Below are positions 15,744 through 48,639 of a stretch of DNA of 64,000 nucleotides, piece after piece. Within the stretch, counting starts at the first letter, position 1. Every line of letters starts with the position of its first letter. The position numbers were made by a program, and so were the translations under genes. The stretch is from Mya arenaria (taxonomy: Eukaryota; Mollusca; Bivalvia; Myida; Myidae). The notes beneath the pieces are model-generated. The model made no database searches, was not told where the DNA came from, and was given only the letters and a program-made list of their open reading frames with translations. The stretch is taken from assembly GCF_026914265.1 (NCBI RefSeq), contig NC_069125.1:72139546-72203545 (forward strand), given 5' to 3'.

Positions 15744-18700
15744 CGCTTGACAGTTGTACCGTAGATGCAGAGTGTACAGCGAACGCCGTATGTGACGTCA
15801 ACAAGGTATGCACGTGCCAGGCCTCATTTTTTGAACGTGGGAAACGGTGTGAGCCAAAAGGTGCGTTTACGTGCATTTCTATGTCTATAAGCCAGCTGGT
15901 TGATATATTATGCAATTAATGTTTTAAAAAATAATAACTTCAGATATAACGCTTGTGTAAAACATATATTAAAATGTATTTTTGTTTGGGACTTTATGAG
16001 CCCTTTCAATTTAGTAACAACATTATTTTACACAATTCTCCAAACTGCCGAAATTCCAAATGGTCGAATAAATACTATGACTATACTAGTTGACATTGAA
16101 TGGAACATACAATCATATTGAGTGTCTGGACTGAACTAATAGAATCACGAGGTAGATGGTTAAGTGAACCTCAACTAAATCGAACAAAATGTCAGGGTTG
16201 TTGTCACTCCATTTTTGTCTTTTAAATTATGCATTTTGTTAGAAAAAAAGCTAAATAAAAGAAAGTTTAGGTGTTATATTGATTTATAATTAGAAAAAGC
16301 TGGTGCGCTTATTTCAATTATAGCAGCTATTGCAACGCCTAGTGGACCTCCAACTGTCCATTTTAAGTTATCAATTGTTTTACCTCTACGTCGAAACACT
16401 GTGAAATAACGCAGGGGTATGGTTGCATTATAAGTAGGACACAAGACTTTCATACAAAACGTTTCCCATATTGTTAGCAGAACATGAACATGAACATGTA
16501 TTTTTACGAAATCACATGCATACTCTGCATATATATGGCATTGTTTTTCAAATCTGTGATACATATCTTGAAAGCACTAACCAAAGAATGGTCTTCGGTA
16601 TATTATCTGAGGAATAATATTATACATGTATGCATGAAAACACGCTTAAAAGGACCTCCTCTTATGTATATGTACATGTCGACGCCATGTTTGTCATCGA
16701 TAGGGTATGTAAAAAAAATCTTTGGAGAATGCAGTTTTTCTTCTTTGAAGAACACTGCATTACATATTGGATTTGAATGTTTTTTTCGAAGACGCGCATT
16801 TTCTGATTATTTACTGTTTTTTGTATTATAATTATTTCCACTGAAACTGATGCGTTGACTATGAAGCTGTGTCATGTATTTTCCTAGTTATGTTGTATAT
16901 CAACAGTGTTGTGATTCAGAAGCATGTTCTGCTTCTTCTGAAGTTGTATACATTTTCTATGTATTGTTTAATGCCATAGTCAAATTACATCTTATATAAC
17001 CCATTCAAGGGACTAAACACTGAATCGGCGAATACAGTTTTTCTCAAAACAAGCCTAGAATTATCAATACGAGCTAGACATCATTATATATGATTAAAAT
17101 AATATTTTTTCGCTGTCTCAGCCCAGATTAACTGTTTAAAAATAGCGCATAATGGTTTCCCAGTTTATAGTGTGTTTTAGCACGTGCAAGTCAATTGATT
17201 AGTACAGATACATATACCGACGCAAGTAGACGAACCCAGTAAATTTCGAATTGGAAAAATGCGCAACAATTGCGAAAGATGCATGTGTCGTAAGCGATGT
17301 GATACATTAATAAGTAAGATGCATGTGTCGTAAGCGATGTGATACATTAATAAGAAAGATGCATGTGTCGTAAGCGATGTGATACATTAATAAGTAAGAT
17401 GCATGTGTCGTAAGCGATGTGATACATTAATAAGTAAGATGCATGTGTCGTAAGCGATGTGATACATTAATAAGTAAGATGCATGTGTCGTAAGCGATGT
17501 AATACATTAATAAGTAAGATGTTATGCGTTGTACACGATATCAATATACACAAGTTTTTTACCGTTTTTATTTGTTTCTGCAATGGAATCCTTTAGTTTC
17601 TTGTCCCTTTAAGGACTGTTAGGGGCTAAATAAAACTCGGACGGGCAGTCGAACTTGCGACCTTCTGAAACCGTAGCGGGCCCAAAAATCTTGAGCGATG
17701 TGAGTATATAACCGCCAAACTAAAAGTGTTTGTATATTTTTTAAAACTCATGTGTACCTGACAACTCTTATTTGTAATACAATTTGAACATGAGAGATTT
17801 CTTACCAGGTTTGGACGACACATGCTCAGCAGATGATGATTGTGTCGCCGTGAACAACGCCATGTGCTCTGGTGGAGCCTGCACGTGCAAACCCTCATTC
17901 AACGAGCAGCAAAAGGCTTGTCATCCTGTTGTTGGTAATTTTAACAGCTAGACCAGTAATCTGGGCGGAAATTAACGTTTTAAATGAGTGTTTAGTCATA
18001 TATCCAGTTACAGAAAGTTCTTATGTTTATGCTTACCCTCTAGCTCATCGCTTCAAACAAACCAATCAGAGCCAAGTACTTCGGTCAATTTATTCCGTTT
18101 ATTGGCATTGATGATTCAGTAGAAACAAGTTGAGGTTGGAGACTTGAACCGTTTGCTCAAATTAAATAACGCTAAGATTTGATTTCATTACTATAAGAAA
18201 AATCCATCCGTAAAAGAAAATTCACAATGCAACTTAATCTTTGTAGGTATCGGTTCCGCCTGCGAAGCGAAGCAAGACTGCAGCCTAGTTGAGAACACGG
18301 ATTGTGTTGAAGGTCAGTGCGCGTGCAGCCCCTCCTTCCATGAGCAGGACGGCACGTGCAACCCCGACTCCGCTCCGACCACCAGCGGTTCGTATTTAAC
18401 TAGGACTTTATCGAAAACTCTAACAAATGTAGAATATAATTTTTATTAAGGCGTATGACACAACTGCATTGTCTCAATGAGAGTCGTAAACATTCGGCTA
18501 TACTACACACAAAATATTGGGTACAGTCTCATTTGGCAATTTAGTCAAGCTATAAACGGAAAATTTGCCGTGGTTTTCAGGTCTGATGGACGTGTGTTCA
18601 ACGGACGGCGACTGTGCGGCCGTGGGGAACGCCATCTGCAGCTCGGACAACAGCTGTGTCTGCCACTCGGCCTTCATGGAAAAGGGCAAACGATGTGAAC

Positions 18701-23115: not shown

Positions 23116-26100
23116 TTACTGGGTTTCTGTGTCGTCTGAGATTGTGGCCATGAAGGCGGCGCTGTTCTCAGCCAGCTCCGCCAGGAACGAGTTTCTGCGC
23201 GGCTTCTCGTCCATCTCCCGGACCTCGATCACCGAAAGACCTGCAGGATGGAGCACTGGTAAAAATCGGATGTGTTATACAGCTGCTTCCAACACATTTA
23301 CTCAATCTCGTTATGTACATTTTACATCTCCATTAGTATCACTATTTTATCAGAATAATACGATCACATCCATACGTCCCGATGAATGCCCCGAATGATA
23401 TACGTGACCATATCATATAAGGTAAGTACGGTTTATATTAGGAAATATACCCGAGGTCTACTTACTCCTGGGCCTGTCGTCGAGGAGCCCCCGGGGGAGC
23501 CGAGGGGAGGCACTGTTGGTCAGGTTGGAGCCGGTAGCGTTCGCAGTCTTGGACGTCTCATTGGCTATTGTTGTCACATCCTCCAAATTCTCAGCAGTCG
23601 TGCTGGCTGTATCTTGGTAAAGTTTTAATTACAAACTTATCAAATATTATAACCACATTTAGTTTTATTCTCATAACACATATAAAATATATTTTTAAAT
23701 GTATTGCTTGTTTATTATGCTGAAAGAAGGAAGCTAGAACATATATACTATATATCTATGTATCAATAGCGAATGATAATCAATTATTACAAAAATATAA
23801 TAGTTTTTATGCTAATATATTTTGAATAAAAAAGTTCTCTGTTCTGACCTGTATGATTCTGTTCGTTTTCCACGTTAATGGTGACGTTGCCGTTGGATTT
23901 TGGCAGCCCGACCTTGAAGGGATTGTTCATAGCGTCCCCTCCGATAGCGAAACTTGACATGGCGCCCATCATGTTTGTCTTTGCTTTGACCTTCCGGTAC
24001 ATGTCTGTGGAAAACAGACAATGCTAAGCCAATAAGATGGAGAGTATAGAATCTGTATGTCAATGTCAAGCTCCGTGTTTTGGGTTCGACTGTGCAACGT
24101 GGACTTTGACTTCACAGTGAACAATACGTGTACCCGCGTTTTTGTTGTATATTTTCAAAGTTTTCAGTGAACTATTGTAAGTGAACTTACTTAGTTTTGC
24201 CTTGACATGCGTGTCCGGTATCCCGGCACTTTCACACAACTTCCCCAACTCAGAGATACAGGCCTGTAACAATTTACAAGTAGAACGGTTGAAAACATGA
24301 ATTTGAACATTCAAACTTTAAAAAGTATAAATAGGTCTCATATCCAATTTACGTGTACTGCTTGGCCTATAGGTACACATACCTCGAGTCCCTTGTTCTC
24401 GTCCTTGACCTCCTGTAGTTCCTTCGCCGTCTTCTTCTTCTGCTTGTAGAGAATCACCAGCCGCAGGTGCTCGTGATCCATGATCGCAACCACCAAACCT
24501 GATAATAAGCAGTGTCAATCTTACATTAAATTACTTTACAGCGTGTATTTATACGAAATACGTATGCATTAGCCGTGTAGTATCATTTCAATTCATTTGT
24601 AATAATATTGCACCATTCAAACATGTTGTTTCAGTCGAGTTCAAATATACAGTCTTGCCGGTTAAATATTTAATAGTTTCTAGCATCGTTTATAAACTTC
24701 TACTCGAAAAAAGAAGTTATTTTAAACAATCGGCATCCACGAAACCAGAGCCAACAATAGTGGTTGATTTCTGCCTCGCATTTTCGTTAACTGTTTCCAA
24801 AGTGTCGTGTGTTCACGCCGCTGTTCGTCTTCAAGAGTACGTACTGTTGACGACCCTGATGATACGCCAGGGAACCATGAAGGCGAGAATGAGCACAAAC
24901 TCCTGCACCTCGAAGTCCTGCAGCCCGCCCAGGAACACCAGGTCAACCACAAACGATGCTATAACGACGAACGCGTCGAAACACTGAAACAAACAAACCG
25001 CATATACACCACATGCGATATAATATATGTCATTGACATTCCTTGATATGCACTTCCTGCTCACTCTGGAATTATTTGTTTATGTTTCCCAACAATATAA
25101 AAGTAATTGAAACCTAAAAAAGAAGAAAGAATATCATTTTTAAAAGTAATGTATAAAGTGTAAGAGTTGGTGTCAGTAACAATACTAACCTCGAGTTTGT
25201 GATGTAACAATTCTTTGCCCAGGCAAACTATCTTTACAAGTATCTGAAAATAAACCAGGATTCAGAACGTTCTTATACCAGCAAAGCTTGACTTACAATT
25301 GTAAGTGGTTCATGTTAATAACCGGAACAAAGCAGATGGATACAACTTATCCAATAATGACTTAACTACTTATCCAATAATAACTAAACTACTTGTCCAA
25401 TAATAACTGAACTACTTATCCAATAATGACTAAACTACTTGTCCAATAATGACTGAACTACTTATCCAATAATGACTGAACTACTTATCCAGTTATGACT
25501 GAACTACTTGTCAAATAATAACTGAACTATTTATCCAATAATGACTAAACTACTTGTCCAATAATGACTGAACTACTTATCCAATAATGACTTAACTACA
25601 TATCAAAATAATGACTGAAATACTTGTCCAATAATGACTGAACTACTTATCCAATAATGACTGAACTACTTATACAATAATGACTCAACTACATATCAAA
25701 ATAATGACTGAACTACTTGTCCAATAATGACTGAACTACTTATCCAATAATGACTGACTTACTTATACAACAATGACTAAATGCCTAAACTACTTATCCA
25801 ATAATGACTGAACTACTTATACAATAATGACTAAACTACTTATCCAATAATGACTGAACTACTTATACATTAATGACTAAATGACTAGATTACTTATACA
25901 ATAATGACTAAACTACTTATTTAATAATAACTGAACTACTTTTCCAATAATGAATGAATTACTTATCCAATAATGACTAAACCACTTATCCAATAATAAC
26001 TGAACTACTTATCTAATAATGACTGAACTACTTGTCCAATAATGACTAAACTACTTATCCAATATTAACTGAACTACTTATACAATAATGACTAAACTAC

Positions 26101-29100
26101 TTATACAATAATGACTAAACTACTTATACAACAATGACTAAATGCCTAAACTACTTATCCAACAATGACTGAACTAATTATACAATAATGACTCAATGCC
26201 TAAACTACTTATCCAACAATGACTGAACTACTTATACAATAATGACTAAATGACTAAACTACTTATCCAAAAATGACTAAACTACTTATCCAATATTGAC
26301 TGAACTACTTATACAATAATGACTTTATGACTAAACTACTTATCCAATAATGACTGAACTACTTACACAATAATGACTTTATGACTAAACTACTTATCCA
26401 ATATTGACTGAACTACTTATACAATAATTACTTTATGACTAAACTACTTATCCAATATTGACTGAACTACTTATCCAATATTGACTGAACTACTTATACA
26501 ATAATGACTTTATGACTAAACTACTTATCCAATAATGACTAAACTACTTATCCAATATTGACTGAACTACTTATCCAATAATGACTAAACTACTTATACA
26601 ATAATGACTGAACTAATTACACAATAATGACTTTATGACTAAACTACTTATCCAATAATTACTGAACTACTTATACAATAATGACTAAACTACTTATCCA
26701 ATTATGACTAAACTACTTATCTTATAATGACTAAACTGCTTATCCAATAATGACTAGACTACTTATCCAATAATGACAGTCGTTAACCAATCAATTAACT
26801 TCAATGCTCAGAAATAGCCAGTGATAATATTTTTGTTACATTCACTTTATAGGATCAGTTGAATAACAGTAGTTATCGTTGTCATTAAATTGAGACGTTA
26901 AAAACAACATTTCATATTGATTTCGTTTATGCGGACAAAAATGTCAAAGAGGTATTTGAGTTCTGGACAAAATGAGGGTCACCGTAATCCTAAAAATAGG
27001 TCTTCAGCAAATACAACGTATTACACAACAATATACTACATGTTGTTGTATACACAGATGTATGTTTAGTTTTCCATCAACAGACTTGTAATAAAAAGTA
27101 TGTCTGTCTGTAAAAGCAATGAGACTTTACCTCCACACACAGTATGCCGAGGATGGATATGCTGGCTTTGTGGAGCCCGTGCGCAATCTGCTCCTCGATG
27201 CTGTGTGCGTGATGCACGTGCGTTATCAGCGTCTCGTTCCCGACTCCCGACCCGGTCGGATGTTCTGCTGTGACTCCGGTCCGTCGCCGTCTTGTGTGGC
27301 GCTCAGCCGAGTGACTACTGCTGTTGATGGCGCTGTCCCACACGGTGTGACCAATGAGGATCTGATGCTGAAGGCCAACGATGTCGTCGTCCTCCAGGCG
27401 GCCGAGCCGCGCAGGATACAGCAGCTTCATCTCCCCAATAAACTTCTCAGACCGGTCGTACTCCTTCGTCAGAAGGTCTGAAATCAGCACAGTATCGTTA
27501 AAACTAGTCAAGAGACTATACAATACAAGGATGCGACTTGTTCGCGTATGTTTGGTCACTTTCTTCTAATAACTTTTCAATACCTACTTTATACGTGGAG
27601 AACTTCATAGTACAAAACAAAATAAAATACGATGAAATATGTAACTATTCTTTCAAAACATGTTACATCGTGATCATATATCACCTGTGACGTATTTAAT
27701 GTCGAGCATTAGTTCTCCGAGCACGAGCAAACAGTCGATGATGTTGAGGATGACGACGGCCAGCAGCACGTACTTGGTGTGCAGGGCTTTCTCGCCCTTC
27801 CGCCGAACCCTGACATATACGAGAGGATCTGAGTTAACAACACATATTATATACTGATGAAATGTTATTTCCGTATTTTGATGGAGAGGGACATTATGAA
27901 AATGATTTGGCGTACAAAAGTGGCAAAAGCAGGGGTGGATCCAGGATTTGACGTAAGTTTGGGCTTTTCTTAGCGTCGTAATCTTTTGACTTGCGGCCCG
28001 CTCTGAGAACCAAAATGTTTTGTTTTCCCCTAAGAAAAGAAAATAAAAATCTATGCGAAAAGGTGCATTTTGGGCGTATATTATTAATCTTTTTCTCACT
28101 TAGAAGATTTTTTTTATTTATTTATTGATCTTTATTTTTTATTATTATTTTTTTTTTTTGGGGGGGGGGGGGGCGGATGCATCTGGATTTGCTAGTTGAT
28201 AGTGTTATATTTTGCTGCTTAATTCCGGACATTCTACTAGTCCCCGGTTGTGCTGTACCTTTGTACTTTGGTTGTGGGCTCTCCACGCTCCGCCTCGTGT
28301 TGTATCTCGCGGTCGAGGGACGCCTCCGTCTTGTCGAGCACCATCATCTGCTGGGCCATCTTCGCCGTGTTTCCGGCAAGAGTCTGCAACACGGGAAAGG
28401 TGGTAAACATTGTACGTGTTTTACGCATACTGCACGGGCAAATGGCTAACATTGCACAAGTTTCAATTGTTTTCTGGCATTACTTAAATATGTTGCTGGT
28501 GTTGGATTACAATAAAACTGTTCAGTTATCACCTGTTAAAAAGTTGGTCAATAGTTGTTGTTTTTTTTGTATATATATCCCATCTTTGACTATGGGTGAT
28601 GTGGATGAACTGTATTAATAAGTAGATCAAACACATTTATACAAATGCGTGGGGACGATATCCGGACATTAACACGACAAAAAATTGTTTTATAGACTTT
28701 TCATTTACCCCAGTATCTGATATATACATTATTTATATTTACTTTTATGATTTGATAGAAGAAACATTTCCATTTATAGCTGATTCTGACGTAAACTGCC
28801 TTTAAACAGGAAGCATAACGAGTTAATTATACTTGCTAATTAGACGAATGCTAATATTATAGGCTGTATACATGTAGCCCTTTCACTGTAAAATTTATGG
28901 TAAGTATTTATATCCGCTGTGTCATCAAGAATTCTCATGCAGGTAAAATAGCTTAGTAATATACATTTAGCAATTAATTCTTAGAGGGACTGCCTAGCCG
29001 CGGGATACATATATTATCTTTAATGCCTTTTTTATGGTGGCTGATTTCAGCTACTTCATATTTTTCAACTCGAAATTACGCCAAGTGGCGAGCCGAAAAT

Positions 29101-30336
29101 ATGCAAGATGGCGGGGCGAAAATTCGCAAGATGGCGGGGCGAAAATACCCAAGATGGCGAGGCGAAAACACGCAAGATGGCGAGGCGAAAATTCGCAAGA
29201 TGGCGGGGCGAAAATACGCACGATGGCGAGGCGAAAATACGCAAGATGGCGAGGCTAAAATTCGCAAGATGGCGGGGCGAAAATACGCACGATGGCGAGG
29301 CGAAAATACGCAAGATGGCGGGGCGAAAATACGCAAGATGGCGAGGCGAAAATATGCCATGTAGGTGGAGGAATTTTGCTATGCCACTTGGTGTATCGGC
29401 GTGTGACGTATTGCCGCATGTTCGTATGTCGGTAGGCATGTAAATGAGTAATCTTTTTCTAACTTAGAAGATTTCATAGTTCACCAAATGGAAAAGGATA
29501 ATGTAAAAAAGACTGATAACAATTTCGTATGTTCGCTACGCCACATTGCGTATTTCGCCAGGCTGCATTGCAAAGTGTCGTACCTTCGCCCCTCCATTTG
29601 GCGTTTAGTCGTAGTTTCGTCCCGCCATATATGGCGTATATGGCGTATTCTCAAAATTTAAAGCTGCACTCTCACAGATTAAACGTTGTGACATGGAAAC
29701 AATTTATATAAGACTGCTGACAAAAACTTAGATCGCAGGTTTTTTATTTTAATTGAAAAACTGATGTTTATGCAATTTTCTTAAACCGTTAGTTTAAGCC
29801 CGAAAACATTAATTTTCGAACGGAAATATCAAATCTGCGATCTGGTCTTTTGTCAGCAGTCTTATTTTACTGGTTTGCAAATAGTTGTGCGAAAATTTGT
29901 TTTTTCCAAGACAATTTTTTTTTGTCAAAACGGTGACAGTGCAACTTTAAAGACAACATCCAACATGGTCGGTAAATTCAAAACTCAAGTTGGGTTTACT
30001 GGACTTGAGTTAAGTTTGCGAAATTTCTACAGCAAAAACTCGAGAACATGATATTTCTTCTTTTTTTTAAAAAAAATCCTAAAGCGTTGCTTTTGTTTTT
30101 GAGTAGACGCAACTCTTATTCTTAAATTAAGCATCTCTGTCAACATTTGATATAATAACTTAATATAATCTGAAATACATTAATTCCATAAGTATAGTTT
30201 AAAATACATACTTTTATGTTAGAAACACTTTCAGGAAGTTGGCTTAATTAAGAAATGGCTTCAGATGTGTTATGAATGCCGGCCCACTTACCGCCAGCCC
30301 CATTGTGTTTTTCCTCCTTCTTTTCATGAACGCCAT
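23116..30336 (-). CDS. Hv1/TMEM266-like voltage-sensor protein, copy A (481 aa)
   Basis: Eleven exons join in phase: 30292-30336, 28259-28383, 27685-27809, 27131-27477, 25190-25243, 24845-24983, 24383-24498, 24191-24263, 23849-24004, 23466-23606 and 23116-23240. S1 is about residues 70-92, S2 204-222, S3 234-250 and S4 261-278; a charged helical stretch (about 290-317) follows S4, as the coiled coil does in Hv1. Aligned by eye to human Hv1, D82 matches the selectivity residue D112, E89 matches E119, E214 and K218 match E153 and K157, D235 and D246 match D174 and D185, H201 matches zinc ligand H140, and R272, R275 and N278 match R208, R211 and N214. V269 stands where R205 should be. The S1-S2 loop is over 100 residues with TRRRR and HVHHAH stretches, much longer than in Hv1. 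The role is a voltage-sensing membrane protein, proton channel or non-conducting sensor. There is no pore domain. Confidence 0.88.
25335..26778. repeat. 23-bp minisatellite (CCAATAATGACTAAACTACTTAT type)
   Basis: About 60 direct copies of a 23-bp AT-rich unit fill the intron between exons 4 and 5 of copy A. Some units carry an extra AATGACTA/TTTATGACT insert, giving 31-36-bp variants, mostly in the right half. The corresponding intron of copy B (40573-40901) has no trace, so the array arose after the duplication. Confidence 0.95.
28120..28175. repeat. T-rich then G homopolymer run
   Basis: A stretch of T/A followed by an uninterrupted run of about 14 G. It lies in intron 2 of voltage-sensor copy A. 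Confidence 0.9.
29085..29365. repeat. 23-bp GC-rich minisatellite in intron 1 of copy A
   Basis: About 12 direct copies of a 23-bp unit, GATGGCGGGGCGAAAATACG plus CAA. The unit is clearly related to that of the large array at 42330-44770 in the same intron of copy B. Reverse-orientation unit fragments lie to the right (29378-29425 and about 29530-29645). Confidence 0.92.
29662..29946. mobile_element. Palindromic MITE with TTAA target site
   Basis: The ends AGCTGCACTCTCACAG and, inverted, AGTTGCACTGTCACC are flanked on both sides by TTAA (29658-29661 and 29947-29950). The interior is also an inverted repeat: AGACTGCTGACAAAA at about 29711 is matched by its complement at about 29850. TTAA duplication fits a Kolobok- or piggyBac-type non-autonomous element. 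There is no coding sequence, and the whole unit could fold into a single hairpin. It lies in intron 1 of copy A and has no counterpart in copy B. Confidence 0.75.
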
Positions 30337-30906: not shown

Positions 30907-31146
30907 TTAAACTGGGCGCGTATTGAACATATACATATTGCATGTCTAGCCTATTAGCAACATATCACTAATTTATGACAGCGTATCACAGCCCATGGAC
31001 AGCGTATGGCCAGCGTTCTCTACTTCTGCCAAATGTATGACTAACTTATGAGAAACTTATGCGCAGTGCGCTCGGAGTGTTGCCGACGGTCAATACAATC
31101 CACTGACGTTCTGCATAAATACGGCGCCGATCTCTACAGTACCACA

Positions 31147-31437
31147 GTCCGCCCGGTTAGCTCAATCGGTAGAGCGTTGGACTCTGAATCGGACAACCCG
31201 GGTTCGATTCCCGGGCGGACCAGATCACTTCTATTGTGATTGGTTATGAAATCCTTTCTACGGCCATTCGCACTGTACCACTGCCCCTGACATGTACAGA
31301 AGTTGTCAGTTCCTTGCAGAGGTGAAGGCACCCAGTACTGGTTCTGCCCAGGATAGGTGTGCGGTGGTTGAACTGTCACTCTGGGACCCTTCAATGTGCT
31401 CACGCCGGGACCCGGAGTATAAACTACTAACACCACC
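31147..31437 (+). mobile_element. tRNA-derived SINE with intact target duplication
   Basis: The head GTCCGCCCGGTTAGCTCAAT contains A-box (TAGCTCAATCGGTAGAG) and B-box (GGGTTCGATTCCC) motifs and is followed by a tRNA-unrelated body of about 215 bp. A perfect 11-bp direct repeat, ACAGTACCACA, flanks the element (31136-31146 and 31438-31448), giving exact ends. The anticodon-like loop would read CTG, but the anticodon stem has mismatches and the acceptor pairing does not fit the standard length, so this is a SINE head and not a tRNA gene. The unmutated duplication implies a fairly recent insertion. Confidence 0.85.
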
Positions 31438-31448
31438 ACAGTACCACA

Positions 31449-32925
31449 TTCATACAGTAGACAGCGAGCTATCAACATATACATGGCACCCAAGAAAACG
31501 AAGAAGAAAGCAACCCAAGAAGTCTACCAGAACCCGAGGTAAAGGCAAAAGGTTCAACCTCCATCAACATCACCATCATCCTCACCATCATCCTCCCTAT
31601 CATCCTCACTATCAACGTCCAAAACCGATTATCGTGCTCATGGTCTCCATCCTGTGTCCGAACCGGCAGCTTGCAGTCACAACGCTCTTCATGTCCTCAT
31701 GTAATGGTTTCCGAACCTGTTCTGTCAGATGCTACAACTGTTGCCATTTGACACTGTCACACTGATGTTGGAGAATCACAAAGTGATATTCTTGTCGAAG
31801 CCCCTTAGGATCCTCGATCTTCCCTGGTGACGGGCGGATTGATGGTGAGATACTAACAGACGCCGTTATATACAGGTGACGCAAAGCGCTACCAAAACGC
31901 CAATAATTATCTTGTTGTACAGAAGAAATACGTTCAATAAGTTACACCGTCGTCAGGCACGTCTAATATGTCCGAATACGCCAATATGCGCTGCATATTA
32001 AATGTATGTTAAATATATAGGTTAACCGTATGTTACTGAGAATACTTTACGTATGTCAAACCTATGAAGAGGACGTCGACTTACGCCCAGAACATTTGGG
32101 CATGCACAAAAAATATTTCTGCCTCTGCGTTCAACCACGTATCCAGCTTATACGAGCGTGCTTTTAACGTACATAACGTATACCAAATCTACCCCTAACG
32201 TCTGTCAACGTGTTAGCAAAAATTGAAATACGTCGGCATATGTTACATTTAAACGTTTAGTGCGGAGGCACCATAACACGTGACAAATATTTACACCTTG
32301 CCAAACTAAATGTATTGGTATTATCAGTAAAATTTAAAAGTGTTAAATTTACATATTAATATATCAACATAACAACTATACTATACACATGTATAAAGTG
32401 ACCGACTAATATTATTGACACATAAAGGATGAACTGAACATAGTTCTGCTGCAATTCTCAAAGTTACTACAATAATATATTTATCTGTATAAAGTATACA
32501 TTATGGAGACATGGACGTTATCATTATGGTAACACGATAAACTATTGTTATTTAGTAAAATCAAAATAAAGTTAGAAATTTGGCTGAATGAAATTAGCTA
32601 CTTAAATTTATTTTGCTAAAGAACTCGAGAAAGTGAGTGGAGGACAAAGACAACTTATAAGTACAGTAAAGATGTTATTTTGCAAGGAGCAAATTGTCCT
32701 TTTGTATTAAAAATCGCACTTGACCGGTTACTGAACTTAATCAGATATGTGATCAGAATATACTTGATTTTTAGATTATTTTAGTTGTCTCAATGGTTAA
32801 AAACGGGTAAGCGTCCATTGTCGTATTATTTTCGTTTTTACATTATCTTACACAGCCATGCCCGATTCTTAAACGTACGTCTATGGTAGAGATTCATCAT
32901 GTTCTTAATGTATGACAGCGACCAG
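31449..32925. other. Unassigned sequence upstream of copy A
   Basis: A short open frame beginning at 31483 (MAPKKTKKKATQEVYQNPR, then a stop) and a low-complexity CATCAC/CATCCT stretch (31560-31620) are visible but do not match anything I recognise. From about 32690 the sequence matches 48.93-49.1 kb, the equivalent region of copy B. Confidence 0.5.
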
Positions 32926-32927
32926 CT

Positions 32928-33070
32928 CATCATCATCATCATCATCATCATCGTCGTGGTCGTGGATTTGGTGGTGGTGGTCGTCGTCATTATCATCATC
33001 ATCAGCAGCAGCAGCAGCACCACCACCACCACCACCACCACCACAATCATCATCTCATCATCATCATCAG
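32928..33070. repeat. CAT/CAC/CAG trinucleotide tract
   Basis: Runs of (CAT)n, GTG/GTC, (CAG)n and (CAC)n follow one another. Homopolymeric Ile, Val, Ser, His and Pro frames across it are artefacts of the triplets. Confidence 0.93.
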
Positions 33071-36000
33071 AAACCGGTTCTACGCCAGTTCTATGATTAT
33101 ACTGCAGACGATTAAGACAAGATGCCTGTAGGTTATCAAACATTCAGTGGTTTGTTGTCATATAACGTATGCTACAATGGATCCTCACAAAGGGGCATTT
33201 AAGTTAAGCATTGCGAGGCAAATAAATGTAATAATGTTATTCCGAAGGGTAATATCCCCCTGGGTATAAAATAGTGTTAGACCTAATTGCTAAAATAGAT
33301 GGAACATTGGAAACATGAAACATAGTCGTCACGTAAATGCCACCGTTGCGAGTGTGACTGTTTATACATCTATTGATATAACTAATATAGGCGTTTTTAA
33401 GGAAATTCAAGCTTTAAATTATCAGAACGCATGCACTGAACATGATCCACACCTTGTTTGTCTGCCACTGAGTCAATTGCTGTCTTTTATTTTATAAGAA
33501 AATCATTTGGTATTGAGATATCAAATTTAAAACTATTTTTTGAATATCAAAACATATTACAATAGTCGATAACTTACCTAGCAACTCTTTTTAAAAAAAT
33601 CCAAGACGAACTAGTATCCAGTATCCATTAAGCCACACATTTGTCACACACTAGCCCAATACCTTCTCAGTTCACTGCGCTCGATGCTACATGGTAATGT
33701 TGGTCTGTGTTTTACATGGTTTAGAATATATGTACTATTCTAAGAGCATTTAGGCCGAAGCCTTGATATATGCTGTGCTATGTATGGATTATGCAAAGAA
33801 GCAATATTTCAAGAAAACAAATAGCATTCTGCGTTGTCAAACGTATCATAATTATACAAAATAACTGAAAGAAGCCATTATTTAAAGATTTATCGGCCTT
33901 TTTGTTTTTCGTTACATTCATGTGTATACAAGTTTTTTTCGCATAATCTAACCTTATGTGTATTCTTATGATGTTTGGACAGCTAGGATGACGAAGATTG
34001 TGCTTGGAAAGAGAAGTGGGATGAAAACAGATCAACAGCACAATACTCAATTAAAAACAAAATAAATAACACAACACAAAACGATGTTTAAGAATGTAAT
34101 TTTAAGGGACTGTGTCAAATCCGCAAAAGGTCTTATTACCTCCACATTAGAAGTGTTCAACAAGCGTGCGAAATTACGTTGACGTGGCTTAAACTGGTTT
34201 GCTCTTATTCTAGTGGTTATTTTTTTTCTATTTTAAACCGAAAAGCGTTTTTTTTTTTTATTCATGATGTTGATTAGGTAAAAAGACTCGGATGTTGTAC
34301 CACTACACAGCGTTATGCCTTAAAGGCAACCAACTTCATTAATTGTTTTTATCAAAATGCTACCTATGCGACGCAAGTGTAAACGAAACATCATAAAAAT
34401 ACAAAATCAAATTCGACATCAGCCAAATATACAACAAGTAAAGAAATGGTTCTTTTTATTTTAGGCTTAGTACCTAACAATCCTTGATGAATACTCCTTG
34501 TTTTATATATATTATATATGTAGTGTGGCGTTGGCCCTGTGCGGGGTAAACGGGTTTACGTTTAAACTTTCCGCTACAATACTTTTTCTGTAGCTTTTCA
34601 AATAAATCTTTATCAAATTTAGCAATGTTTAGATATATAATTATGGTTCTGGTGCATAATGAGTTTATGTAGTATCTCATTCTAAAAACAGATATGGGCT
34701 TTTGGTATGGAGTTGAACTTTTAAAGTGTGTTTCTTTTTATCGCTTTATATCAACTTTACAACTGATGTCGTTCTCAAATGCACAGTACAAAAGTGCATC
34801 ACTTAAATCCTTTGTATTTTATTAGGTTTATAGAAGCCTTTTCGTAATTAAGCTAGGTACCCCTGTGGTAAGTTGTATTATAGTTGTCACCTGGCTGACG
34901 AGGAGAGCCACTTAGCGGCCCAATGTGACAGTTTAAGAAGGCCAAATACCTGTTTCAATTGAGCCTGCTGAATTACTATTTTCACGTAAAACCCCATAAA
35001 CGCTGAGATTTCTTTTAAAGTAATGACGAACTTGAACCTTCGATTATATCTGTTGAGGAGGAAGAGCGAAGTTTGCTGTCAATTTCATGTAATTCGCTAA
35101 CCAACAGTAAAGTCTAAGATAATGTAACGTTTAAAACAAAACACAACCTGGACGAAGTCAACGTGGAACCGTGTGAAATATCGTAAAATACGGTGCAGAA
35201 TGAATAAACGGTTCGAATTAAAATCTACCTTTTTTCCTATTTTTCAACTTTAAAACACTTTCTGACTACTAGTATTATCTCCTCTATTATCCCAGGGGGT
35301 TTGACACGCTGTGCCAGACGCACAGAACCTCAAACTTATTGAAACGTACTATATTATGAAAACAATCTTTACCTTTGAATGGAAATTTTTATTAAACAAC
35401 TTATATACAGTTTTAATTTTTGTTTTTTATAAATTTATAAATTACTTAATATGATCATATTCGAGATATGTAAAATGAAAGTTTCAAACACATGCTCGTA
35501 AATCAATTAAATTAAAATCAAGGGAGGTAATAAATATGATTAGAAACAAGATTGTCAACAACCGTAAGGAAATCGGTCCTATATCGTTATTGATATATAT
35601 CCTATATTTTAAAATATACTGGTCTAATGCTTTACTTCATGTCATCTTACTATAACATAAGTTACAACTTAGTTACAATCAAATACACATATGGGGAGAA
35701 ATGCATAACTATCGGACCGTTATCGGGGCATCGTTGGGCCTTTCTTCCGACATTCAGACCAGATGCCGATATCTATTCGATATGGCCATGTTCACTGGGT
35801 AGTAGCATGTTCTGAGTGTTATCTGATATTTATACTAAATTATTCAAAAACATAAAGAAAAAAAGATTTGTGTTTAAATTCAAGAAAATGATCTTGATCA
35901 TTATGAAGGCGTTCCTGACATGGACATTCCGGGAAAATGTCCTTCAAAATCTATGTGCGGTTTCGTTGGTTTAGACTAAAATCGATGCTTTTAAACGTAG

Positions 36001-36360
36001 AAATAGTCAAATGAGACATGACATCAAATGAATATTACGATGTACGCTTTAATGACGTCTTGTTCGTTGTATTCATATGCATCCGTTTTGATAGCTACGC
36101 GATCTCTCGGGTACGCTTTTACACACCGAACTGGAAACGCCTCGGCAGTTTAGAATGGATTGTTTGCTGCGTCAATCCTTGACCAAGATTATGACACATT
36201 TGTTAATAATAATATACGTCTAATTCAAACTGATTAAAATCATATTCTCACTAACACAAGCTCATAAGGCAAGAACGACCCCATATGTCCCTAGTCAGAT
36301 TTGGATCTACTACTATATTTTGTATTTCTATGACTATTGTGCGTTTGTAATTGTAAGTTA
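33071..36360. other. Upstream flank of copy A and duplication junction
   Basis: No gene is recognisable. Blocks match the flank of copy B: about 34.1-35.2 kb with 50.1-51.06 kb, and about 35.9-36.15 kb with 52.77-52.94 kb. The second block in B lies inside a twitchin intron, so this stretch is the duplicated, decayed 3' end of twitchin. The right end of the duplicated unit falls between about 36.15 and 36.36 kb. Confidence 0.6.
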
Positions 36361-36754
36361 GAAGGATAGTACTTATAAAAAAGTTTGTTATATAAACGAA
36401 CAAAAGTATTGCCTTTATCCATATAAAGACATCATTAAAACACCTAAAATGTAGATTGTCAATTAGTGGTTGATAGCGAAATCAGTTTAACAACGGGTTG
36501 TTTCGAAGAATCAACTTACTCTTTCGATACATTATATAAACATGAAAAGAGCCAGCGACTTATTTTATTGAACATCTGTTTACAACTGGTTTTCATCAGA
36601 TTTGCTTCTCTTCTGCAACATGATGAGACGCGCAAACACAATATGGGCATGGTCGGTCCACAGGTTCAGTCGCCAACGTCTTGTGTGTTGTTTTGAATCC
36701 CTGATTTATCGTTGAGTATAAACTGGAAGCGGGAAACTAACTTGTAAATGTTAG

Positions 36755-36974
36755 CTATCGTGAACGACTGTTAGCCGTAACGTCTGCTGCCTTTTCAAAT
36801 CCCCTGTTGTCTGCGCAGCCTTCCTGTATGCCGTCCGCTACTTGTACCCCCACGCTCTCCTCTTGAAGTCCCATCGCATCGTTTTTGGCTTCAAAATAAA
36901 AACAGTCCTGATTATTCCACCATCCCTTCAAAACATTTGCGGTTGTAAGTGGTGTAAATACAGCTGAATAATTT
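36755..36974 (-). other. Conserved segment, possible alternative last exon of copy B
   Basis: After an acceptor-like CCTGCAG the minus strand is open for 73 codons (containing FYFEAKNDAMGLQEESVGV) to a TAG at 36755-36757. It is the counterpart of 21261-21449. It does not join in phase to the exon at 37514-37669, so if it is used there must be an intervening exon that I did not find. Confidence 0.3.
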
Positions 36975-37427
36975 CTGCAGGCATACGTCATTCCAGCCAG
37001 GACCAAGTGGGTTACTGTGGCTTCTAGTTCTGCTTTGATAACAATTACTAGTAGAATGACTTGGGAATGGAACTTATGGTAGTCAGTATACAGTATACGA
37101 AAAACTCAATTTTACTAACAAGTTAGTTCAGATATTCGATGTTTCTGTACGTGGGAAATTAAAAGCAGTTACATCCATATCAGCAAAATATATGACCAGC
37201 TCCTTAAAGTTTAAAATGAAGTTAATTGTTACAAGATCGGCTAGCAAGGTATTTAAGGTAAGCCGTTTATCATGAAAACAAAACGATGCTACTTGTAAAT
37301 ATTCGATTTAAAGAGACGGGCTGCATGTGCTGGCTGTCAAGTTTAAGAAAAGTCTTAATAACAAAATGGCAAACTTTGATTTTGATTTTGAGGTTGTAAA
37401 GCAATTATTAGTTTAACTCTTAGATAC

Positions 37428-40400
37428 TTAGAGAATATAATAACTTTCTTGCTCGTATATTTTGAAAATGTATGTGCCATCTGTTATTACCTTTATGTGC
37501 TCTCTGGTATTACCTGTATGATTCTGTTCGGTTTTTAAGTTAACGGTTTCGTGGCCGTTGGTCATGGGCAGCCCGACCTTGAAATGTGTGTCCATATCTT
37601 CCCCTCCGAAGGCGAAACAAGACATGACACCCATCATGATCGTCTTGGGTTTGGCCCTCCGGTACATGTCTGTGGAAATACAGACAATGTTAAGCCATCT
37701 TCATTGAAAGAATATATTATGCCAATGTCAGTCTTCATGATTTGGGTTTGATAACTTTGCTACGTGCAAAAGTTGGCTATGACTTGAGAGGGAACAGTAC
37801 GTTTCTTTTGTATACTTACAAACAATTGAAGTGAACTTACTTAGTTTTGCCTTTACATGGGTGTCTGGAATCCCAGCACTTGCGCACAACTTCCCCAGCT
37901 CATCGATACACGCCTAAAACAATATTATAGAAGAAGTGATAAAAACATGTGTTTGTACATTCAAACTTTAAAAAGTATATATCACATATCCAATACACGT
38001 GTACTTCTATGCCGGTAGGTACACATACCTCGAGTCCCTTGTTCTCGTCCTTGACCTCCTGTAGTTCCTTCGCCGTCTGCTTTTTCTGCTTGTAGAGAAT
38101 CACCAGCCGCAGGTGCTGATGGTCCATGCTCGCAACCACCAAACCTGATAGCAAGCAACAACACACTTACACAGTCGCCATGTTCAGCAAGTATACTAAG
38201 AATGTATGCATAAGCCTGTAGTTTGATTTGCAATACTAGTAGTACCTCTTTGTACATGTCGTTACAATAGAATTCAAATATAGCCTGAACAGTCCAAGCT
38301 TTAATAGTTTTCTAGTACCATTTACAAAATGTTTTGTTTTTTTTTCTTTTTAACAAAAATATATTTTAAACGATCGGCTTTACATGACTACTTAAAAACA
38401 ACTTGAACAAAAATGATTGTAAAATAATTGCTTTCGATTTCAGTGAACGGTGTTCAGTCTTAAAGTGTCGTATGATCACGCTGGTGGCCGTCTGCTAGTG
38501 TACGTACTATTGACGACCCTAATGATCCGCCAGGGAACCATGAAGGCGAGGATGAGCATGTACTCCTGCACCGCGTAGTCCTGTAGCCCGCCCAGGAACA
38601 CCAGGTCAATCACGAACGATGCTATCACGACAAACGCGTCAAAACACTAGAATATACATACAACATTCATCAGCCGTGACTTTAGAGTATGCGTCCACGG
38701 CAACGTAAGCGATATAGAAAACGTGTCATGCATCAATGCGTTAACGGACCAACTAATGTTGCCAGTCATACATTGAATGTGGTTATCAGCAGAGACCCTG
38801 AGTTCTCTAATTCCGATGGAAAAGCGTCACGTGACCACGTGGCTGTTATTTTCGACGCTAAAGCTTCTAAACCACTATCAGTAAGAACAACTGGGTCTTA
38901 TAGGAAATTGAGTTCCATCGATATTCATTCGTTTTGACAAGATATAAGAAAAACATATTTTTAACACTAAATGCATTCACTCAAATACTGATGATTTTGC
39001 GAAAGAATACTCAGATCAGCTTATGTCTAAAGTTGACAACCATGCCCCATTACACACCAAGACTGTTGTGCTGAGACCTTCATGCCCTTGGTGTAATCAA
39101 CAACTACACGAAGCGAAACATCAGAAACGTAAATAAGAAGGAAAATGGCGCGAAAGTAAACTTACACTCACGAATGGTATCAAAGTATGCTCACGTGATT
39201 TAAAATGCCAAAAGAAACCCGTGTGGGGTACTAAACGAGCAAAGCAAAATTGAGTCATGCGGGTGTGATCAAAAGAGTCTCTTTAAGATCACCAAACATC
39301 TTCTGGGTAATACATATGAGGTGATTTTACCATCAAATTCATCTTCAACGCGACTCGCACATGGTTTCAGTGACTTTTCATTGAAAAGATCGAAACAATC
39401 AGAAACAATATAACAATCACAAACGGAATCCGTTTCTGACCTGAATTACATGGAAACCAACTATGCGTCTGTCAATTTTGTAGGATTTACTCAAACCTCC
39501 GAAGAAGAAATTATATCAATAATCAAAAAGGTAGCAAACAACTCTTGTGAACTAGATCCCATACCGACATGATTATTAAAAGAATGTCTTCGTGAGCTTA
39601 TACCTGTGCTGAGAAAAATCATAAATGCATCTCTAGACGTTGCTTATGTACCCAAATCATTCAAAGTCCGCGAAGCAGACCTATTCTAAAAATACCTAGA
39701 TGCTAATGTACTAAAAACTACAGGCCAGGGTCCAATCTACCGCTTCTGTCCAAGCTCTTAGAAAAAGTTATTGATGTTCGAATTGAAAATCATCTGAAAA
39801 ACAATGATCTTCATGAAGTCGATCAATCTGCCTATAGACAATTCCTCTCTACAGAAACCGTCCGTCTGTAAGTCCATAACGACACTCTAATCGCTGGATA
39901 AGAACAGTGTGACAATTCTTGTGATGATTGGTCTCTTTGCAGCATTTGATACCATCGACCACAGGACGCTGGTTCATCGCCTAGAACGTCACTTCGGTAT
40001 CTCAGGCAAACCCCTCGCATGGATGACATCATATATGCATAGACGGCGAGCTATCACAACCAGTGATCATGACTAACAGAGTACCCCAAGGACCTGTCCG
40101 ATGAGAGCCAAAGAACTACACTAAGTAAACACAAATATTTGGAGTTATCTGCAAAACGCAAAGATTGAATAATCTTTTTTATGCGGACGTTTCGCAGTAA
40201 TACTTACCTTTCATATTTGCGGACATAATGTCAGTCGAAGAGACCATAACCGTGTTGAGAGCTGTCTTAAAGATATAGTAAATTGTTGTCAATTGATAAC
40301 AACATGATTAAAACAGTTTCCAATATCTCTGTATCAGTTGACAATTCTGAAATCAAGCAATCGTTAATTATTTGATATGCACTTGCTGTTCACTTTTGAA

Positions 40401-43400
40401 TATCTTTTACGTGTAAATACAATGACGAAATAAACAAAGGCAAGAACAATGGAATGTCATAATGATGTTTTTAAGTAATGTATTAAGTGTGAGAGTTGAT
40501 GTCAGTAACTATACTAACCTCGAGTTTGTGATGTAACAATTCTTTGCCCAGGCAAAATATCTTTACAAGTATCTGAAAATAAATCAGGATTCAGAATGTT
40601 CTTGTACCAGCAGCCAATTGAGTATAGCTTGACTTACAGTTCGGCCAAACTTTTAATTACCGGAACAAAGTTATCACAAAATGACTTCATTCAACAATTC
40701 AATACTCAGATTTAGCCAGTTATATTGTATTAACTTAGATCAGTAGATTGCACTAGATCGCGTTGCCATTAAAAACTTTATTTCGGTTTGATTTCGTTCA
40801 TCCGGACAACACTGTCAATGAGGCATTTTGTTCAAGGCATTTAATTTCAGGCAAAAGAGCGTCGCCCATTCTGTCTGTCTGTACGAACTATGAATCTTTA
40901 CCTCCACACACAGTATGCCGAGGATGGATATGCTGGCTTTGTGAAACACGATCGCAATCTGCTCCTCGATGGTGTGTGGATAATGCACGTGCGTTATAAG
41001 TTTCTCGTTCCCGACTGCGGTCGCATTTTCGGCTGCGTCGCCGGCCCGTCGCCGTCTTGTATGGACGCCAGCCGACCATTGACCGCTACTATTTGTGGCG
41101 CTGTCCCACACGGTGTGACCAATGAGAATCTGATGCTGAAGGCCAACGATGTCGTCGTCCTCGAGGCGGCCGAGCCGCGCAGGATACAGCAGCTTCATCT
41201 CCCCAATAAATTTATCTGACCGGTCGTACTCCTTCGTCAGTAGGTCTAAAATCAGCAGAGTTGCGTAAACAGTAGTCAAGATACTATACAATACAAGGAT
41301 GCAACTTGTTCACATATGTTGGTTCACTTTGTTTAAATTTTCAAAACCCACTTTATACGTGGAGTACTTACTTCGTACTTTTGTATTACAAAATAAAGCA
41401 AAATTCTAATAAAAATGTTCTATTCTTTATGAGCATGTTACATCATACACAATACCTGTGACGTATTTAATGTCGAGCATGAGTTCTCCGAGCACGAGCA
41501 AACAGTCGATGATGTTGAGGATGACGACGGCCAGCAGCACGTACTTGGTGTGCAGGGCTTTCTCGCCCTTCCGCCTAACCCTGACATATACGAGAGGATC
41601 AGAGTTAACAACACGTATACAGATGATCTCATATAATGTTCGTGTTTTGCCCTCTGTGTAAAAAGACTTAGTTTTGCCATTAATACTTTATTTAAAATGA
41701 TTTTTGGATGATTGACTTTATGACGATGGCTGGGCGTACAAAAGAGTCAATAGAGTTATATTTCGCTGCTTAATTCCAGACTACTTAATGACTTTCTGCT
41801 TGGCCCCGGTTGTTCTGTACCTTTGTACTTTGGTTGTGGGCTCTCCACGTTCCGCCTCGTGCTGCATCTCGCGGTCGAGGGCCGCCTCCGTCTTGTCGAG
41901 CACCATCATCTGCCGGGCCAACTTCGCCGTGTTTCCGGCCATAGTCTGTCGCACGGGAAAATGGTTCTTATTGCATGTTTTTGTTATTATAATTTAAAGA
42001 ATTAAGGAGCAGCAGTTGTTTTGATCACCTTTTAGAGTGATAAAATGTATGTATTTGCAGTAGCATTGTTGTTATTTTTTACTGTTGTTTTTGTTTTGTT
42101 TGTTCATCTTTGAATTCGCCATGACTGTAGTAGATGAACCGTATTAACAATTAAACCAAACTCATGATTACACATGCGCGTCCCGCCACTGTATACTTTC
42201 GCTCCGCCACTTTGCATCTTTTCGCCCGCCAATGTTCGGACATTAATATGACAACAAAATGCTTTATAGATCAGCATGTAACTTGACAAAAATTATGGCA
42301 TTTGTATACATTTGATTGTGGAAACATACACCAAGTGATTGGACGAAAATACGCCGGATAGCGGGGCAGAAATACGCCAAGTGGCGGGGCGAAAGTATGC
42401 AAAGTGGCGGGGCGAAAGTATGCAAAGTGGCGGGGCGAAAGTATGCGAAGTGGCGGTGTGAAAGTATACCAAGTGGCTGGGTGAAAGTATACCAAGTGGC
42501 GGTGTGAAAGTATGCGAAGTCGCGGGGCGAAAGTATACCAAGTGGCGGGGCGAAAGTATACCAAGTGGCTGGGTGAAAGTATACCAAGTGGCGGTGTGAA
42601 AGTATGCGAAGTGGCGGGGCGAAAGTATACCAAGTGACGGGGCGAAAGTATACCAAGTGGCTGGGCGAAAGTGTACCAAGTGGCTGGGCGAAAGTATACC
42701 AAGTGAAGTGGCGGTGTGAAAGTATGCGAAGTGGCGGGGCGAAAGTATATCAAGTGGATGGGCGAAAGCATACAAAGTGGCGGGGCGAAAGTATACCAAG
42801 TGGCGGGCCGAAAGTATGCCAAGTGGCGGGGCGAAAGTATACCAAGTGGCGGTGTGAAAGTATGCGAAGTGGCGGGGCGAAAGTATATCAAGTGGATGAT
42901 CGAAAGTATACCAAGTGGCGGGGCGAAAGTATACCAAATGGCGGGGCGAAAGTATACCAAGTGGCTGGGCGAAAGTATACCAAGTGGCTAGGCGAAAGTC
43001 AACAAAGTGGCGGGGCGAAAGTATGCGATGTGGCGGTGTGAAAGTATGCGAAGTGGCGGGGCGAAAGTATATCAAGTGGATGATCGAAAGTATACCAAGT
43101 GGCGGGGCGAAAGTATACCAAGTGGCGGGGCGAAAGTATACCAAGTGGCTGGGCGAAAATATACCAAGTGGCTAGGCGAAAGTAATCAAAGTGGCGGGGC
43201 GAAAGTATGCGATGTGGTGGTGTGAAAGTATGCGATGTGGCGGGGCGAATGTATACAAAGTGGCTGGGCGAAAGTATACAAAGTGGCTGGGCGAAAGTAT
43301 ACAAAGTGGCGGGGCGAAAGTATACCAAGTGGCGGTGTGAATGTATGCGATGTGGCGGGGCGAAAGTATACAAAGTGGCTGGGCGAAAGTATACAAAGTG

Positions 43401-46400
43401 GCGGGGCGAAAGTATACCAAGTGGCTGGGCGAAAGTATACAAAGTGGCTGGGCGAAAGTGTACCAAGTGGTGGTGTGAAAGTATGCGAAGTGGCGGGGCG
43501 AAAGTGTACCAAGTGGCTGGGCGAAAGTGTACAAAGTGGCGGGGCGAAAGTATACCAAGTGGCTGGGCGAAAGTATACAAAGTGGCTGGGCGAAAGTGTA
43601 CCAAGTGGCGGTGTGAAAGTATGCGATGTGGCGGGGCGAAAGTATACAAAGTGGATGGGCGAAAGTAAACAAAGTGGCTGGGCGAAAGTATACCAAGTGG
43701 CTGGGCGAAAGTATACAAAGTGGCTGGGCGAAAGTGTACCAAGTGGCGGTGTGAAAGTATGCGAAGTGGCTAGGCGAAAGTGTACCAAGTGGCTGGGCGA
43801 AAGTATACAAAGTGGTGGGGCGAAAGTATACCAAGTGGCTAGGCGAAAGTATACAAAGTAGCTGGGCGAAAGTGTACCAAGTGGCGGTGTGAAAGTATGC
43901 GAAGTGGCGGGGCGAAAGTGTACCAAGTGGCTGGGCGAAAGTATACAAAGTGGCGGGGCGAAAGTATACAAAGTGGCTGGGCGAAAGTGTACCAAGTGGC
44001 GGTGTGAAAGTATGCGAAGTGGCGGGGCGAAAGTGTACCAAGTGGCTGGGCGAAAGTATACAAAGTGGCGGGGCGAAAGTATACCAAGTGGCTGGGCGAA
44101 AGTATACAAAGTGGCTGGGCGAAAGTGTACCAAGTGGCGGTGTGAAAGTATGCGAAGTAGCGGGGCGAAAGTATACCAAGTGGCGGGGCGAAAGTATACA
44201 AAGTGGCGGGGTGAAAGTATACCAAGTGTAGGGGCGAAAGTATACAAAGTGGCGGGGCGAAAGTATACCAACTGGCTGGGCGAAAGTATACCAAGTGGCT
44301 GGGCGAAAGTGTACCAAGTGGCGGTGTGAAAGTATGCGAAGTGGCTGGGCGAAAGTATACCAAGTGGCTGGGCGAAAGTATACAAAGTGGCGGGGCGAAA
44401 GTGTACCAAGTGGCGGTGTGAAAGTATGCGAAGTGGCGGGGCGAAAGTATACCAAGTGGCTGGGCGAAAGTGTACCAAGTGGCGGTGTGAAAGTATGCGA
44501 AGTGGCGGGGCGAAAGTATACCAAGTGGCTGGGCGAAAGAATACAAAGTGGCGGGGCGAAAGTGTACCAAGTGGCGGTGTGAAAGTATGCGAAGTGGCGG
44601 GGTGAAAGTATACCAAGTGGCTGGGCGAAAGAATACAAAGTGGCGGGGCGAAAGTATACCAAGTGGCTGGGCGAAAGTATACCAAGTGGCTGGGCGAAAG
44701 TATGCGAAGTGGTGGGGCGAAAGTATACCAAGTGGCTAGGCAAAAGTACACCAAGTGACGGGACGAAAGTACAGTACTATTAAGACCAAACTTTACACTC
44801 TTGTGCACTTGAAGTGCACTCCTAGTGAACAAAATGTGCACTATGGATAAACTAATGTAGTCTATAGTTTATTAGATAAGCCAGTATTGATTTTCCTGGT
44901 CCACTCAGATTGGCCTTAAAATATTGATTTAATTTCATTGATAAGATCATTTCCTCTACCAGTTCATTGTTTAACTTGTGATAAAATGTTTTAGTATACT
45001 GTATTTATTGGTGACTTTATGATGTAAATCATTTTATGGGCCAGTAACTAGGACAAGGGGTTTCTACCCGTCATTTACTGGTCATATTTGTCAATTATAA
45101 ATTATAATGTAGATGAAATAAGAATAAAACACTGCACCTCAAACACTGACAGGTCTGAGATTTGATAGACAATAGTAGGCAATAAAGAAAAAGATCAATA
45201 TACAGAATTGTGTACTAAGGGGAGGGCACTTAAAGACGGCTCAAATTACGCCTTCAATGGCTAGTATTTCATTTAATAATGAAGCAGCAACACCAAATAT
45301 ACAACTCCTCCAAAATATATGTTTATCTATATTATTACATGTTTCAAATTAGAAATGCAATTAATCATCTGGGTACAATGTAGAATATACGATAATAATT
45401 AATGGTGTACTTATTTGATAATGATTGCTGTCAGGCTGTCACCTTAAATCCGAACACATTTGTTACATAAGAATAAACATAAAATTGAAAGTTTCTGCTC
45501 ATGGAAGAAAATCTTTGTTTATATACCCTTCGAATTAATCAACAATGACACAAGAATTTCACAGTTTGAGCTTGGAACAATAAGGCGTGAACTTTGACGT
45601 TTAACTATTTCAAATACCGAACAACTTGTAATTATCACCTTGTGAAACTGATTGTTACACTTTGAATAAAGGCTCATGAATTCCTTTGATCGTTATGTTA
45701 AATAAGTGTTATGTTGAAGATGTGTGATCCCGCTAATTATCGCCCAATAGCACTGCTTAGTTGTTTTGGTAAGCTATTTACTACAGTTTTGAATAATAGA
45801 CTATTAAAATTCATTGAAAAATACGATATGTTAAGCGAATTTCAAACTGGTTTTAGACCAGCACATTCAACAGTCGATAACATGTTTGTTTTGAATATGC
45901 TTATAGAACACATGTACACATCTCGCAAGAAATTGTTATGTGCCTTTATTGACTTAAAAGGTGCCTTTGATTCCATTAATAGAAACATGCTATGGTTTAA
46001 AATGCATGGACATAAGATACAAGGAACCTTTTTAAATGTTGTTAGGAACATGTACGAACAAGCAAAAAGCTGTGTTAAGGTGAATGGAACTAAGTCGGAC
46101 TATTTCCCTTGTTGTGTTGGGGTCCGGCAAGGAGAAAGTTTATCTCCTTTACTGTTTTCATTCTTTGTAAATGATTTGCATCAATATTTTCAAAGTAGCT
46201 TGGTTGTAAATGGTATTGTTATTAACAAACATGAACATGATTACAGGTTAATTGATTTTTTAAAGTTATTTGTACTCCTTTATGCGGACGATACTGTTAT
46301 AATGTCTGAATCTGCTATAGATTTACAGAATGCACTAAACCTGTATGAGAACTATTGTTTACAGTGGAATTTAACTGTTAATACCTCAAAAACTAAGGTT

Positions 46401-48608: not shown

Positions 48609-48639
48609 TGTTCGGGATTACAGTCAGCTGATTAATTCC
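48609..48639 (-). other. 5' UTR part of the start exon, copy B
   Basis: An acceptor (CTATTTCCAG) lies 31 bp upstream of the start ATG, as in copy A. The non-coding first exon and promoter should lie between here and about 51.2 kb. Confidence 0.6.

Follow-up and report, generated by a model that had tools for sequence, protein, structure and literature searches.

A tandem pair of putative proton-leak channels of the HV3 type in the clam Mya arenaria

What becomes of a voltage sensor that keeps the residues by which the human proton channel Hv1 selects protons and loses residues that hold this channel shut? The question is raised by two homologous genes in the window, i.e. the whole 64,000-nucleotide stretch of Mya arenaria DNA analyzed here (NC_069125.1, positions 72,139,546 to 72,203,545). 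They lie in tandem on its minus strand (copy A, 23116-30336; copy B, 37514-48608), and the fourth membrane segment (S4) of both proteins reads V-P-W-R-x-x-R-x-x-N, that is, it is without the first arginine (R1). Judged by sequence, the genes are a new pair within HV3 and not a new kind of sensor; this family, reported in molluscs, brachiopods, and phoronids, comprises proton channels made of a stand-alone voltage sensor. Most likely, with a probability that we put at about three in four, they encode proton-selective, leaky, weakly voltage-gated channels; we infer conduction, the leak, and its direction by analogy with the Aplysia channel AcHV3 and with human mutants.

The "unconventional" HV3 channels of molluscs have a large S1-S2 loop, large intracellular domains, and the S4 motif xPWRxxR, and up to eight of them occur per bivalve (PMC10377628, which also announces a manuscript on HV3 channels). 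The clam pair has VPWRIIR in both copies, with proline following the position of the missing R1, Asp82 in S1, a loop of ~107 residues, and large intracellular parts (in copy A, ~60 residues ahead of S1 and ~200 past S4). As in other bivalves, there are several genes, with 11 distinct loci in the clam against the "up to eight" of the literature. AcHV3 differs in having leucine at R1, where the window pair has valine. The original prediction had recognized the absence of R1 and a loop of more than 100 residues; it did not connect them with the published HV3 family, which they mark, and the losses at human positions F150 and V109 went unmentioned.

Sensor residues and the clam HV3-type family

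The human residue numbers given here are assumed, with D112 and H140 as anchors; those of copy A count from the start MAFMK in exon 30292-30336. D82, E89, E214, and K218 of copy A align with human D112, E119, E153, and K157, and D235, D246, R272, R275, and N278 align with D174, D185, R208, R211, and N214. Equivalents of D123, H140, H168, E171, and W207 are also present in the window pair. This alignment agrees with the earlier proposal that D82, E89, the S2 Glu/Lys, the S3 acids, and the S4 pattern R-x2-R-x2-N match Hv1 and that the machinery of proton selectivity may be intact. The differences from human Hv1 are Val269 at R205, Pro270 at L206, Leu211 at F150, and Asn79 at V109, and the pair also has a longer loop and a long C-terminal tail. 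Two general hallmarks of Hv1 are thus absent: the S4 motif RxWRxxR (V269) and the S2 gasket phenylalanine (L211). The latter is described as conserved (PMC10377628), and the gasket of human Hv1 is formed by V109, F150, V178, and V179 (PMC11853527).

The S3-S4 exon, searched against the clam genome (1.216 Gb, 18 contigs), yielded 14 matches, all on contig C4 (~38.1-38.2, 50.65, 53.4, 63.7, 72.2, and 76.3 Mb). Thirteen span at least 45 of the 47 residues and one covers the last 22 only. All 13 long matches have Pro-Trp and no R1 arginine; R2 is arginine in 12 and lysine in one. Eleven loci, the window pair and nine further ones, differ from one another and have no break in the sensor exons examined; for the paralogs, this applies to the assembled sensor exons alone. 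Three were left out of the residue comparison: L043, L046 (S1 partly matched, lysine at R2, an altered end of S4), and L051 (a stop in S1 and a frame break ahead of S4), the latter two being counted as broken. The loci numbered L011-L022 in the S3-S4 search are the same places as L039-L049 and L051. The same contig carries one conventional channel, with S4 RLWRVTR, at 26.69 Mb.

Across the 11 aligned sequences, the parts that would choose protons are held and the parts that would shut the pore are changed together. The equivalents of W207, R208, R211, N214, E171, D174, and D185 are invariant (11/11), and the S1 acid at D112 is aspartate in ten and glutamate in one. R1 is absent and the S4 proline present in all 11. 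Phe150 is likewise absent throughout, being replaced by leucine (eight), isoleucine (two), or methionine (one), and Val109 is absent in 10 of 11: asparagine in six, including both window copies, cysteine in two, alanine and serine in one each. S3 positions 177 and 178 are aliphatic in every sequence. The clam conventional channel, in contrast, retains V109, F150, and R205; Val109 and Phe150 both occur in human Hv1, and Phe150 also in Cav3.3 and the Nav1.7-NavAb chimera. No earlier statement on the gasket residues of HV3 was found in the excerpts of the literature searched (PMC10377628 and PMC11853527 included), and the original reports may contain one; the gasket change seems to be a new addition of the present analysis.

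A tree built from 15 sensors sets the 11 HV3-type sequences of the clam apart from human Hv1, the clam conventional channel, and two outgroups, with local support of 0.999. The outgroups, the second voltage-sensor domain (VSD2) of Cav3.3 and the Nav1.7-NavAb chimera, are without S1 and were placed beside human Hv1 at 0.594. The tree, which was built without TMEM266 and a voltage-sensing phosphatase, is therefore silent on whether HV3 falls inside or outside Hv1.

Some loci have features of their own. In L041 the loop is apparently divided by an extra intron. L042 and L043 (C4, 63.68 and 63.76 Mb), 76 kb apart, have S1 and S3-S4 exons without difference, pointing to a recent duplication or an assembly copy. 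On contig C3, L058:5039-5194 and L059:4567-4722 (92.09 and 88.19 Mb) contain an S3-S4-like exon, RLWRLPR, with protein identical over 51 residues; it is weakly nearest to Hv1 (expectation value, E, of 0.022), has a possible S2 exon upstream, and may represent a further sensor-only gene.

A probable proton leak and its alternatives

How could these residues produce a leak? Protons would be selected by S1 Asp82 and S4 Arg272 (human D112-R208), both retained. Three features that help to keep the human channel shut are altered: R205 to Val269 followed by Pro270, F150 to Leu211, and V109 to the polar Asn79. Without R1, the contact that R1 makes with D112 in the closed human channel could not form, and a wetter and looser constriction would be expected from Asn79 next to Leu211. 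Together, the lost contact and the wetter constriction would result in a leak that is selective for protons and depends weakly on voltage: protons would pass at rest, voltage would alter the current only weakly, and the leak would run along the proton gradient.

The tested relative behaves in this way. AcHV3, with the motif LPWRxxR, is proton-selective (>10^7 over tetramethylammonium, TMA+) and leaks when closed; its conductance-voltage curve is shallow, with a steepness of ~60 mV per e-fold versus 4-6 mV in its siblings (PMC10377628). This bears out, by analogy, the suggestion of the original prediction that altered voltage dependence or a leak is likely with one S4 charge fewer. In human Hv1, R205W alone causes a closed-state leak, beside which AcHV3 has been set, and more polar gasket residues are reported to cause a leak too (PMC11853527).

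Several observations weigh against a leak, or against extending it to the whole family. Both valine at R1 and leucine at the gasket position are hydrophobic residues, which might close the pore more tightly than the tryptophan or more polar residues of the human mutants. The likeness to AcHV3 holds for its published traits (S4 motif and proline, S1 acid, long loop, and large intracellular parts). The family is not uniform at position 179, which is isoleucine in the window pair and threonine in L047 and L049. E153, retained by the window pair, is lost in 3 of 11 sequences (tryptophan, tyrosine, and valine), and L049 retains Val109 and has lysine for H140, so that members may differ in function.

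A different outcome is a silent sensor, in which S4 moves and no proton passes, as proposed for TMEM266 and mentioned in the original prediction. The clam pair shares with TMEM266 an Hv1-like S1-S4 and a large additional cytoplasmic tail (predicted to be disordered in TMEM266; PMC6392501); it has one gating charge fewer and metal-ligand-like residues outside. However, TMEM266 differs from Hv1 in the opposite way, since it retains three S4 arginines and the S2 phenylalanine and has the non-polar V111 (PMC6392501), which, by its spacing from E118, probably falls at Hv1 D112. The clam pair has two S4 arginines, leucine at the gasket, and the aspartate. The analogy therefore fails at these positions; moreover, AcHV3 conducts (PMC10377628). 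We regard a silent sensor as unlikely.

Less likely still is an ordinary voltage-gated proton extruder with shifted gating, in which the changes of R1 and gasket offset each other. R2, R3, N214, and the S1-S3 acids are all present in the window pair, and the hydrophobic valine and leucine may still seal the pore; on the other side stand the asparagine at V109, which is polar, and the shallow AcHV3 curve compared with its siblings (PMC10377628).

Voltage-sensing phosphatases (Ci-VSP/TPTE) resemble the clam pair in having a four-helix sensor without a pore. Pfam found no phosphatase part after the clam sensor: the sole match at E<=1 is Ion_trans, at 17.6 bits, below the cut-off of 25 (part of the clam conventional channel scores 43.4 bits). 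A search of solved proteins, with a first-draft protein from S1 to past S4 as query, matched nine sequences at E<=10. The nearest are human Hv1 (5oqk; 1.7e-11) and an Hv1 chimera (3wkv; 1.6e-7), followed by six CNNM2 sequences (0.18-0.64), which match the S1-loop part, and Cav3.3 (5.7); no voltage-sensing phosphatase is matched at that threshold.

Returning to the HV3-type leak, a tentative extension, to which we give somewhat less than even odds, is that HV3 channels are natural gasket-less channels: ancestral losses of R1, the S2 phenylalanine, and the S1 valine would have made the valve a standing leak, which was then multiplied on one clam chromosome. If so, the gasket would account for part of the published AcHV3 leak, which has been linked to the absence of the arginine and to the proline. 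That R1 and two gasket residues are missing together, in proteins that retain the selectivity residues, yields a testable prediction, and the two well-defined clam genes together with the nine further loci provide material for studying how a voltage-gated proton channel turns into a leak. Shell calcification and neuronal pH of molluscs may be affected by leaks of the HV3 type, as has been suggested (PMC10377628). In a comparison of three bivalves, three ion transporters were found in the mantle under repair in every species, and one of them is a voltage-gated hydrogen channel, which may or may not be HV3 (PMC8382897).

Gene models, duplication, and the S1-S2 loop

The original coordinates, 24845-27809, cover S1 to S4, and the coding exons of copy A extend over 23116-30336. 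Its 11 coding exons, separated by ten GT-AG introns with agreeing phases, encode 483 residues:

30292-30336, minus strand: first coding part, MAFMKRRRKNTMGLA (frame open from the ATG and followed by a GT donor; copy B has a homologous exon); the exon may reach further upstream and include a 5' untranslated part
28259-28383, minus strand: N-terminal cytoplasmic exon (AG/GT borders, 88% identity with copy B)
27685-27809, minus strand: S1 exon with N79 (human V109), D82 (D112), E89 (E119), and D93 (D123)
27131-27477, minus strand: long S1-S2 loop and first half of S2, with H201 (H140), L211 (F150), and E214 (E153)
25190-25243, minus strand: second half of S2 and S2-S3 link, ILVKIVCLGKELLHHKLE
24845-24983, minus strand: S3-S4 exon, V269-P270-W271-R272-x2-R275-x2-N278
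24383-24498, minus strand: S4 continuation, putative coiled coil
24191-24263, minus strand: C-terminal exon
23849-24004, minus strand: C-terminal exon
23466-23612, minus strand: C-terminal exon
23116-23240, minus strand: last coding exon, stop included

Seven hydropathy runs (17-residue mean >1.3) merge into four membrane stretches, at residues 64-97, 196-228, 229-256, and 253-285.

The model of copy B comprises nine matching exons and 392 residues, 3' end excluded:

48564-48608, minus strand: first coding part
41821-41945, minus strand: N-terminal exon
41456-41580, minus strand: S1 exon, protein same as in copy A
40902-41245, minus strand: loop and first half of S2, HVHYPH
40519-40572, minus strand: second half of S2
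38508-38646, minus strand: S3-S4 exon, VPWRIIRVVN
38029-38144, minus strand: stretch after S4
37841-37913, minus strand: C-terminal exon
37514-37669, minus strand: C-terminal exon

The original prediction had left room for an alternative S4 exon that restores an arginine; tblastn with the S3-S4 exon over window positions 23000-50000 gave one S4 exon per copy and none else at E<=1.

Could the two genes be decaying duplicates, either pseudogenes or assembly copies? The two broken relatives, L046 and L051, would fit such decay, and the last two exons of copy A have no counterparts in copy B at E<=1 within 31001-50000. However, all splice sites and frames are intact in the modeled exons of both copies. 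Over 391 aligned codons, the synonymous (dS) and nonsynonymous (dN) divergences are 0.236 and 0.076, giving a dN/dS of 0.32 (bootstrap 95% 0.22-0.48). Because of this ratio and of an S1 exon with zero amino-acid changes, both copies look retained under purifying selection, and the shared changes stand above chance. The two largest alignments of their DNA show only 85% identity (763 columns) and 74% identity (1,211 columns), and therefore they are not haplotype copies. Decay is thus very improbable.

The loop between D93 and H201 of copy A (residues 94-200) has 107 residues with 10 histidines, and that of copy B has 106 with six; in human Hv1, 16 residues separate D123 and H140, counted from the sequence, so that the clam loop is ~90 residues longer. 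Its N-glycosylation sequons, NSS and NET, would fit an outside position. H201 aligns with human H140, which we take to be a zinc ligand. Neither copy has a histidine between D246 and W271, leaving no counterpart of H193, the presumed second zinc ligand. We rejected this loss as an HV3 hallmark, since the clam conventional channel also lacks histidine in this gapped region. The changes had been described as the same in both copies; this is true of S4, S1, and the long loop, and not of the histidine cluster, which is HVHHAH in copy A and HVHYPH in copy B. No cluster of this type was found in the two other paralog loops aligned. L047 (C4:38207500-38217400), a divergent HV3-type paralog without the S2 E153, has a very histidine-rich loop upstream of S2 (HDHAHDHTH...HKHD).

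Repeats and other sequences in the window

Tandem repeats occur in introns of the pair. In copy A, most of the intron within the S2 coding sequence is taken up by a tandem array (25345-26777) of 23/46-base units, ACTTATCCAATAATGACTGAACT. The first intron of copy B contains a 23-base tandem unit, GCGGGGCGAAAGTATACCAAGTG, in ~105 copies at 42361-44771, and that of copy A has a similar 23-base array (29071-29354); both first-intron arrays yield long spurious open frames. The first intron of copy B also holds, at 45711-47480, an open frame of 589 residues, of which the first 267 strongly match a reverse transcriptase (RVT_1, 134 bits). Elsewhere in the window, a Ser/Tyr-rich open frame of 151 residues (56191-56646) has no Pfam match at E<=0.001, and a 40-base unit is repeated six times, with copies 98% alike, at 17276-17521.

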